This document shows positions 4,254 through 16,588 of a stretch of DNA of 61,946 bases, piece after piece. The stretch is from Actinomycetes bacterium (GTDB lineage Bacteria > Actinomycetota > Acidimicrobiia > Acidimicrobiales > GCA-2861595). The stretch covers positions 1 to 61,946 of the forward strand of contig JAHFUS010000013.1 in assembly GCA_023264975.1 (NCBI GenBank), written 5' to 3'. The notes under the pieces were generated by a model. The model was not told the origin of the DNA. It saw nothing but the letters and a program-made list of their open reading frames with translations, and searched no databases. Each line of letters starts with the position of its first letter. Positions within the stretch are counted from its first letter, which is position 1. A program made the translations under genes and the position numbers.

Positions 4254-5207
4254 TCAAAGCCAGTCCTTGCGCTTGAAGTACTGGTACCCGAGGATCGTGA
4301 CGACTGCCATGAGCGACAGGGCGAACGGGTAGCCGTAGCGCCAGTGCAGCTCCGGCATGTGGTCGAAGTTCATGCCGTAGATGCCGGCCAGGAGGGTGGA
4401 AACGAGGAGGATGGCGCCCCACGAGGTCATGCGCTTCATGACCTCGTTCATGCGGTTCGACATCATCGCCAGGTTGGCGTCGACGGCGTTGCCAACCAGC
4501 TCACGATGGGCGTCGAGCTGGTCGACGACGCGCAGGACGTGGTCGTACACGTCCCGCATGTGGACGCGGGCCTTCTCGTCCACCGCCCCCACCTCGCCCC
4601 GCAGGATCGCCTGCACCACGTCGCGCAGCGGGACGACCACCCGCCGGAAGGCCACCAGCTTCCTGCGCACCTCGAAGAGCTGCTGGTGGATCTCGCCGGC
4701 ATCGGCGCCGAACGCCCTGAAGATCGTGCCCTCCACGTCGTCGAGCACGTCCTCGGTGGAGTCGGCGGAGGCGAAGTACCCGTCGACCAGCTCGTCGAGC
4801 AGCACGTAGAGCAGGAACCCCACGGTCGCCACGTCGGCCGTCATGCGCTCGAAGCGGGTGCGAGCGCCCTCGTTGTCCCAGGCCTTGCCGTCCTCGTCGT
4901 GCTCGCGCACGGTGACCAGCCAGTGTTCGCCGACGAAGAAGTCGACCTCCTGGAGGTCGTTGCTGTAGGCGACGACGAAGGCGTGGGTCGGGTACTGGTC
5001 GAGCTTCGGGCGCTGGTGGTGCTTGCGCACGTCCTCCATGGCCAGCGGATGGAGGTTGAACTGCTCCTCGAGGCACGCCAGGTCGTCCTCGTCGGGCTCC
5101 ACCAGGTCGACCCAGAGCAGGCCGTCGCAGCCATCAGCCAGCTTGGCGATCTCCTTGGGATCGTGCTCGCTGGCCTTCCCGCCGTGGTAGGTGCGGACCG
5201 CGATCAC
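4254..5207 (-). CDS. corA: CorA-type magnesium/cobalt transporter
   Basis: A 317-residue CorA protein. A long acidic, helical cytoplasmic N-terminal domain leads to the stalk helix and two C-terminal membrane helices. The selectivity-loop motif YGMNF sits at the end of the first helix, and the protein ends in a basic tail (FKRKDWL), both diagnostic. It forms pentameric channels for Mg2+ (also Co2+/Ni2+). The start is GTG. It lies 36 bp downstream of uppP on the same strand and may share its transcript. No Mg2+ sensor RNA is visible. Confidence 0.93.
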   Translation of the reverse strand: MIAVRTYHGGKASEHDPKEIAKLADGCDGLLWVDLVEPDEDDLACLEEQFNLHPLAMEDVRKHHQRPKLDQYPTHAFVVAYSNDLQEVDFFVGEHWLVTVREHDEDGKAWDNEGARTRFERMTADVATVGFLLYVLLDELVDGYFASADSTEDVLDDVEGTIFRAFGADAGEIHQQLFEVRRKLVAFRRVVVPLRDVVQAILRGEVGAVDEKARVHMRDVYDHVLRVVDQLDAHRELVGNAVDANLAMMSNRMNEVMKRMTSWGAILLVSTLLAGIYGMNFDHMPELHWRYGYPFALSLMAVVTILGYQYFKRKDWL

Positions 5208-16480: not shown

Positions 16481-16561
16481 GGTGGTCCAGCTGCCGCGTC
16501 AGCGGCCAGCCACCTCCAGGGTCCCAAAACGCTGACTGTGCAGTTGGACCACCTCCTTTCT
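16481..16561 (-). ncRNA. structured leader/small RNA with a buried, extended Shine-Dalgarno sequence
   Basis: On the minus strand the sequence begins AGAAAGGAGGTGGTCC (16561 downwards) and continues for 24 nt almost fully complementary to the consensus actinobacterial 16S 3' end (two wobbles, one mismatch). Most of this is the 5' arm of a long hairpin: outer arms 16540-16553 and 16481-16494 (14 bp, one mismatch), a symmetrical 3x3 internal loop, an inner 7-bp stem (16530-16536 with 16498-16504), and a 25-nt loop that carries a second GGAGGTGG. No normal ORF starts at the usual distance; a GTG frame directly after the site has only 18 codons. A dyad (16567-16588) lies in the presumed promoter. 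Function unknown. Confidence 0.5.
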
Positions 16562-16566
16562 CTGGT

Positions 16567-16588
16567 ACGGATATGAAACCACATCCGT
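16567..16588 (-). promoter_or_regulatory. dyad in the putative promoter of the 16.5-kb RNA
   Basis: Inverted repeat ACGGAT/ATCCGT with a 10-base spacer, upstream of the extended ribosome-binding sequence. A TTGCGC box (16590-16595) is at a plausible -35 distance from an AT-rich CATATCC. It could be an operator or part of the leader fold. Confidence 0.3.

Follow-up and report, generated by a model that had tools for sequence, protein, structure and literature searches.

Does a hairpin that can bury a long complement of the ribosomal RNA tail amount to a functional RNA? The question is raised by a locus on the minus strand of a contig from an Actinomycetes bacterium of the order Acidimicrobiales (GenBank assembly GCA_023264975.1, contig JAHFUS010000013.1, positions 1 to 61,946), the whole 61,946-nt stretch of which we call the window. 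The initial annotation, made from the letters of the window alone, had noticed that 24 nt of a transcript beginning at 16561 could pair with the 3′ end of 16S ribosomal RNA (rRNA). It had placed these bases in the 5′ arm of a nearly perfect hairpin, and had proposed a ribosome-titrating or ribosome-sensing small RNA (sRNA) or leader. The minus-strand letters from 16588 to 16340 agree with its sequence and coordinates. Our comparison with related loci confirms the sequence observation and partly supports the reading drawn from it. It points to a conserved, stand-alone actinobacterial sRNA that probably senses or engages ribosomes. More specifically, we consider it about an even chance (roughly 0.5) that the fold of this sRNA would be gated by ribosomes loading on, and translating, a mini-open reading frame (mini-ORF) that lies inside it.

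The ribosome landing site is a Shine-Dalgarno (SD) sequence, AGAAAGGAGGTGGTCC, at 16561-16546 on the minus strand. It is a 16-nt complement of the 16S rRNA 3′ end and lies within the 24-nt complementarity (16561-16538), whose coordinates, two wobbles and one mismatch had all been given correctly. A search of 31 genomes recovered the corresponding 16S tail, CGGCTGGATCACCTCCTTTCT, as an exact match in 8, including one from the family of the window. No copy was found in the window's own assembly; hence, the rRNA operon is probably missing from it. The 17-mer AGAAAGGAGGTGRTCCA, allowing at most one mismatch (A or G at one position), has a single occurrence in the 3.78-Mb assembly, and the exact SD 17-mer AGAAAGGAGGTGGTCCA is present in 38 of 296 genomes of the class, at one site in each. 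The reversed 17-mer pattern gave none among the matches listed for the class genomes.

All 16 SD positions are able to pair with the 16S tail in 54 of the 54 elements counted, a figure biased in favour of pairing, since this SD had guided the choice of elements for the covariance model used in the search (R1, from 34 order-type sequences) and the presence of GGAGG was a requirement. These elements were drawn from 59 model-search loci after removing one duplicate and four loci without an SD passing the filter; three of the four carry the same SD, and the fourth is L245. Where an element departs from the exact complement, the change is always A to G, and pairing is retained. Position 13 is always a G, forming a wobble where the exact complement would be A, and this G is also needed for GGUCC to pair with GGACC. 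A second SD-like box, GGAGGTGG, follows at 16517-16510. Its GAGGTG is found in 163 of 164 non-redundant elements, partly through selection, and also in 29 of 30 loci found via the first SD alone.

The initial annotation had stated that no ordinary ORF starts at the right distance from this SD. In contrast, we observed a conserved mini-ORF at 16543-16499 (minus strand) whose CTG start lies 8 nt past GGAGG. It reads CTG CAC AGT CAG CGT TTT GGG ACC CTG GAG GTG GCT GGC CGC TGA, i.e., 14 codons encoding (M)HSQRFGTLEVAGR and a TGA stop, with the second box inside it. A fixed stop and an NTG start recur across the elements. The stop lies exactly 15 nt past the start of the second box, in frame, in 154 of the 163 non-redundant elements that have this box (TAG in 98, TGA in 46 and TAA in 10). 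Back to the SD, the frame is free of stops in 156 of 163 elements, against 80 and 35 for the other frames, and an NTG start stands in the right window in 132 of 163, against 22 and 5. Among loci found by the first SD alone, the in-frame stop is present in 29 of the 29 with a second box, with none in either of the other frames. Starts were called by a priority rule favouring ATG. CTG is the commonest (46 of 154 elements), with ATG and TTG at 34 each, GTG at 17, and the rarer ATC (12), ACG (6), ATA (3) and ATT (2). The coupling of a maximal SD to such weak start codons is unusual.

The peptide appears to matter less than its frame. Its first half is highly variable, and its conserved half coincides with the P0a, K and P2 pairings described below. 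The residue before EV switches between L, S, P and R in step with the P0a partner; T and R are kept in 143 and 131 of 154 elements, respectively, and E and V are invariant through the way in which the loci were selected. As the conserved half coincides with RNA pairing, selection seems, on this sequence comparison, to act on translation and folding rather than on the peptide. In L086 and L093, which represent two outlying kinds of locus, the short ORF is in another frame relative to the second box. A divergent group (L111, L112, L150 and L156) has both the SD and the second box, but none of the frames listed for it has, at the usual distance, an NTG start with a stop within reach.

Four pairings, one of them a pseudoknot, covary strongly across 89 aligned members. 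Paired cells make up 89.5% of the total versus 30 to 45% when the strands are slid, both-side changes occur in 353 cells versus 111 after shuffling, and the covariation score is 0.439 versus 0.140, with none of 500 shuffles as high. P0a joins the bases just ahead of the SD (CCAG, 16565-16562) with a CTGG inside the ORF (16519-16516). Its variants are CCAG/CTGG, CCGA/TCGG, CCAA/TTGG, CACG/CGTG, CACA/TGTG, CGTG/CACG, CGAG/CTCG and CAGG/CCTG; 96.1% of its cells are paired, both-side changes affect three of four pairs, and a few elements leave it unpaired (e.g., CCAG/CAGG in 3 of 154). P2 joins GGTGGCTGGC at the end of the ORF (16514-16505) with the downstream GCCAGACACC (16468-16459), with 87 to 89% of cells paired and both-side changes in all five inner pairs.

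Of the remaining two pairings, HK is a 3′ hairpin (16445-16423) with GGTCCC in its loop (16435-16430). When the best stem is chosen for each element, 140 of 143 show a fully paired 5-bp stem around GUCC, and these stems have 58 different sequences; in the aligned members, 90.5% of its cells are paired and all six pairs show both-side changes. The pseudoknot K pairs GGGACC within the mini-ORF (16525-16520) with this loop. Its cells are paired in 85.6% and five of six pairs show both-side changes, the outermost pairs being the weakest (unpaired in 28 and 21 of 89). Furthermore, the base before GGAC complements the base after GUCC in 118 of 140 elements, where shuffling gives a mean of 87.5 and none of 5000 shuffles is as high. 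Related loci share the flank ACCAG ahead of the SD, and loci of the window's kind continue after it with GGGACC-CTGG-AGGTG-GCTGGCCGCT and further common blocks. The 236-nt region as a whole folds more stably than expected (z = −4.17), with 0 of 200 dinucleotide shuffles equal or better.

These counts depend on how the samples were assembled. Of the 164 non-redundant elements, one is without the second box and nine more are without the fixed stop, which leaves 154. GGAC is present at the position sought in 143 of these, and 140 of the 143 have the all-paired 3′ stem. The 89-member alignment (A6) was obtained by thinning the 164 elements by identity alone to 93, of which R1 matched and aligned 89; L111, L128, L133 and L150 had no R1 match and were left out. 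Alignment by R1 leans towards P0a, P2 and HK, which were given to the model, and K was left out of it. A6 replaced A5 because a filter for a P2-like partner had been applied in compiling A5 (115 of 154 elements passed, then were thinned; 74 of 77 were used, plus L117, L180, L181 and L185); A5 gave 90.3% paired cells and a covariation score of 0.432. Smaller sets were A1 (29 of 30 elements of group A after thinning, chosen in part by GCTGGAC, a criterion that favours P1), A2 (21 of 26 elements) and A4 (34 of 38, with a selection independent of P1).

Some other routes to the fold were abandoned. RNAalifold, which considers nested pairs only, gave other partners for the P2 strand in A1 and only four P2 pairs in A2, and we turned to counting pairs in the named structures. 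The counts also exclude A3, a MAFFT alignment of the whole family in which the 3′ strand of P2 was misplaced between groups. For P2 partners, a best-of-window search separated poorly from swapped controls (mean 9.02 versus 8.66), and the position-fixed counts serve as evidence.

What, then, of the hairpin that had drawn attention to the locus? Its geometry is as described: an outer stem, P1, of 14 bp with one A·C mismatch (16553-16540 with 16494-16481, the 3′ arm being GCAGCTGGACCACC), then a 3×3 loop, a 7-bp inner stem and a 25-nt loop carrying the second GGAGGTGG. By itself, it folds modestly (z = −1.93; 5 of 200 shuffles as good). As a conserved unit, the hairpin survives in part. The outer stem, which is able to hide the SD, is kept in close relatives, with 97.4% of cells paired in 34 order-type sequences not picked by P1, and 97.7% in 29 sequences picked partly for it. 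The inner stem is lost as a conserved helix, since all seven pairs form in one of the 34 order-type sequences and at most five in the other 33. Because the SD arm is invariant, P1 shows no covariation. Over 78 wider members, the aligned partner is missing in 20 to 28 of 78 for each pair, again with no covariation. P1 crosses both P0a and P2 and is therefore an alternative to them in a plain fold. Compensatory changes, which the initial annotation had proposed as a check, thus appear in P0a, P2, K and HK but not in its own outer stem. It had also named lost stems beside a kept reading frame as evidence against itself; on that count, the hairpin idea is half refuted and the RNA idea gains.

The limits of the gene are consistent with an independent transcript. 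Upstream, a promoter-like −10 region (16583-16573) holds TGTG (16583-16580) and TTTCAT (16578-16573), from which transcription would start near 16567. Among 135 elements, 65 have a −10-like TANNNT at −18 or −17 relative to the SD; over all 135, T occupies −12 in 71% and G occupies −19 in 74%. The hexamer of the window, TTTCAT, is not TANNNT and is only a weak version. The promoter dyad proposed at 16588-16567 is not upheld: it is kept in the same genus (L003) but lost in another genus of the family (L004), whereas the −10-like box at that place recurs across elements. Downstream, the predicted terminator-like hairpin with its 15-bp stem (16385-16352) is present. A strong hairpin of this kind (stem score of at least 10) follows in 110 of 135 elements versus 4 of 135 control stretches, and it is found whether or not the small gene discussed below is present. 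Its median end is at +215 from the SD (99 elements with a score of at least 11), and the T run after it is weak (mean 2.2 T in the next 8). These features give an RNA of about 215 nt, from roughly 16567 to 16350 on the minus strand.

A small conserved gene, separate from the RNA, follows on the same strand at 16338-16117, with a probable GTG start. It has a homologue in 86 of 148 genomes of the order. Among the 78 order genomes with the RNA, it lies just downstream in 43, elsewhere in 9, and has no match in 26; when it follows, it is on the same strand at a distance of 45 to 575 nt, and the two are neighbours in 43 of the 52 genomes that have both. Over 140 elements of the whole set, the next downstream gene is on the same strand in 65, convergent in 56 and not in reach in 19. 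A simple gene caller provided these neighbours, and its calls were corrected in the 26 loci with a known downstream copy of the small gene (uncorrected, it was wrong in 6 of the 26). Since the next gene is often convergent and the small gene is absent or elsewhere in many genomes, the element is, on these genomic counts, an autonomous sRNA gene with a favoured neighbour and not a leader. Of the two possibilities first proposed, a ribosome-engaging sRNA is the best reading, given its ends and covarying structure, and the leader is disfavoured by the neighbour counts.

The product of the small gene, about 73 aa, is of unassigned family and shows the pattern RFxxxRWLGDKR...NRGYRPCRHC. Its C-terminal end weakly resembles an Ada-like zinc-binding region (Pfam E 0.048, below the cut-off). 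Neither this protein nor the product of the upstream gene had an NCBIfam match or anything over the cut-off in Pfam. In two loci of the Thermoleophilia type (L107 at 1651, plus strand, and L066 at 6757, minus strand), the same-strand upstream gene resembles the end of gyrA; in other lineages, the neighbours differ.

How widespread is this RNA? Of 118 genomes of the order, R1 found the element in 78, and of 149 genomes of the phylum in 52, always as one copy and never as two at the threshold. A wider pattern recovered at least 119 stretches in named genomes. Among the matches listed (80 titles), actinobacterial groups such as Acidimicrobiia and Solirubrobacterales are named in 70, and the other 10 give other phyla or plain "bacterium".

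The element also has a named relative. Rfam RF02471 (Ms_IGR-5), an actinobacterial sRNA that takes its name from Mycobacterium smegmatis, aligns over its full length (model 1-184 of 184) to 16566-16399, with 31.9 bits and an E-value of 1.6e-5. This score is below the curated cut-off of 45 bits, and for that reason we call the window element, on sequence, a divergent homologue of Ms_IGR-5 and not a formal member. At the gathering threshold, Rfam reports only tRNA-Arg in the window, and the link to RF02471 appears with an E-value threshold; the element is the sole RF02471 match in the genome. Two loci of the window element's kind exceed the cut-off, L072 with 50.8 bits and L163 with 58 bits, and L072 shares the mini-ORF peptide of the window. 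Of 149 phylum genomes, 31 have an RF02471 match, one in each, and 14 of these are over the cut-off; R1 reaches the same place in 27 of the 31, and the other four were reached by direct scanning of the loci. Ms_IGR-5 and the window element have in common the SD, the mini-ORF, P0a, P2, K and one copy per genome. Rfam types Ms_IGR-5 as an sRNA gene, and the first helix of its alignment is neither P0a nor P2. Unlike Ms_IGR-5, order-type members have a short middle part and the additional SD-hiding stem P1.

The founding Ms_IGR-5 paper is reportedly PMC3828370, to which a reference in the M. smegmatis report cited below points. According to the accessible text of the respective reports, RNA-seq has validated a homologue of Ms_IGR-5 in S. 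lividans (PMC8079986), another has been matched with an sRNA unit of S. avermitilis (PMC8780764), and one overlaps ncMSMEG15794c in M. smegmatis (PMC10454040). Ribosome-protected reads over homologues in M. abscessus and M. smegmatis have also been described in the accessible part of another report, which adds that the coding potential of such RNAs is hard to assess (PMC4974804). By analogy, these reads in relatives would fit translation of the mini-ORF. In the accessible text of the open-licence literature searched, no function, ORF or such fold was found for Ms_IGR-5, and the exact SD string had no match in open-licence literature. A term search of the main text of PMC3828370 did not find IGR-5 in print.

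Several look-alikes were recorded beyond these groups. An RNA-like stretch with the same 16-nt SD lies at 4402-4547 (plus strand) of L094 and also in L093, L109, L141 and L167. In such loci, a short ORF, MIVRGSIRRWVR-stop, occupies another frame, and a second AGGAGGTGG is present together with a terminator-like end. The records of L094 and L109 are labelled Planctomycetota, and four scanned loci of this kind score 26 to 31 bits with R1; both homology and convergence are possible. One look-alike is in a record labelled Eisenbacteria (L117, 7047-7196, minus strand; R1 44.8 bits), and two are in records labelled Acidobacteriota (L133, 536-710, and L128, 6286-6414, both minus strand; 15.5 and 18.8 bits, respectively). 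Mis-binning is possible for all three.

How could such an RNA engage the ribosome? Comparison across the related sequences establishes the gene limits, the conserved frame, the 16S complementarity, P0a, P2, K and HK. From this anatomy, we infer that a ribosome would bind the 16-nt SD, which adjoins the RNA 5′ end, and would translate the 14-codon ORF, in the window from its weak CTG start. The ORF bases contribute one strand to each of three helices, the 5′ one in P2 and in K and the 3′ one in P0a. As these strands lie in the ORF, a ribosome loading and moving to the stop would have to open all three helices. In order-type members, the SD could alternatively be shut into P1. The RNA may thus exchange between a ribosome-free and a ribosome-engaged form, and this exchange may be regulatory, with the activity of the RNA probably gated by the ease of 30S initiation. 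Since the ribosome would have to open the helices, the fold and some output of the RNA would most likely be gated by ribosome loading.

A number of observations weigh against this reading. P1 shows no covariation and is not general in the family, and a nested energy model, which excludes K from the count, favours P1 over P0a, P2 and HK together (mean −55.8 versus −45.1 kcal/mol in the 34 order-type sequences). Part of the set was collected with GAGGTG and the SD as search keys, so that their own conservation partly reflects selection. The fixed stop is absent in 9 of the 163 elements having the second box, and the −10-like box matches TANNNT in just 65 of 135. Under strict filters, 40 of the 118 genomes of the order and 97 of the 149 of the phylum gave no R1 match, and RF02471 matched 0 of 14 named control genomes.

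Other explanations use the same anatomy differently. The RNA may be a decoy for 30S subunits, its 16-nt SD holding or titrating them, its poor starts slowing initiation so that the subunit stays parked, and translation being a by-product. This is unlikely, in our view. The 16-nt complementarity in all 54 elements counted and the predominance of CTG among called starts (46 of 154) speak for it, but a pure decoy needs neither a fixed stop, an open frame nor covarying P2 and K. Moreover, in the order, P1 can hide the very SD that should capture the subunit, and a titrating RNA would need very high abundance. A cis-acting leader, in which ribosome-controlled termination at 16385-16352 would regulate the small gene at 16338-16117 by transcription attenuation, is improbable. 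It would account for the placement of the small gene in 43 of 78 order genomes, same-strand and 45 to 575 nt downstream, with the hairpin between the two where looked at, and for their adjacency in 43 of the 52 genomes having both. It would not account for the 26 RNA genomes in which the small gene is unmatched and the 9 in which it lies elsewhere, for a next gene that is convergent in 56 of 140 elements (same-strand in 65), or for a terminator-like hairpin that is there with or without the small gene.

If the locus were instead a very small protein gene, a peptide of 12 to 15 residues ending in xGT(L/S/P)EVxGR would be the product, acting by itself. We regard this as quite improbable. The conservation of frame, start region and stop, with T in 143 and R in 131 of 154 elements, would be expected of such a gene; the variable first half of the peptide would not, and the conserved half is also the strands of P0a, K and P2. 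Besides, the L/S/P/R switch tracks the P0a partner, the invariance of E and V is due to locus selection, and L086 and L093 carry their short ORF in another frame relative to the second box. Finally, a functionless chance hairpin over a strong ribosome-binding site would agree with the z of −1.93 for the hairpin by itself. We give it next to no weight, as it is refuted by the once-per-genome recurrence, the conserved frame and the covariation.

Gating by translating ribosomes, the reading that we favour, has parallels in known systems. Leader-peptide attenuators, such as those of amino-acid biosynthesis or the whiB7 leaders, likewise place a short ORF within competing RNA structures and a terminator-like hairpin after it; here, P0a, K, P2 and the inner end of P1 all share bases with the mini-ORF (16543-16499). 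Unlike them, the window RNA has no fixed downstream gene, its ORF contains no run of codons for a single amino acid, and the peptide start is not conserved. Dual-function sRNAs with a small ORF, e.g., SgrS and RNAIII, are also independent sRNA genes carrying a reading frame. In contrast to these, the ORF of the window RNA sits inside the conserved fold.

The family to which the element is related has been named before, and our study adds the ORF inside a covarying pseudoknot, the 16-nt complement of the 16S tail and the weak start codons. A wider and tentative proposal, which we consider doubtful, is that this is an ancient RNA sensor of translation initiation, maintained as a single copy per genome in much of Actinomycetota and perhaps beyond it, given the look-alikes labelled Eisenbacteria and Planctomycetota. 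Such a sensor would combine a maximal 16S-pairing site with often weak starts, and ribosome passage through an ORF of 12 to 15 codons would switch between pseudoknotted and open forms, reporting free 30S subunits or start-codon stringency. The anatomy described here makes gating by initiating ribosomes directly testable. The phylum of this element includes major pathogens and antibiotic producers; if such gating is confirmed, the RNA would be a general readout of translation capacity in actinobacteria.
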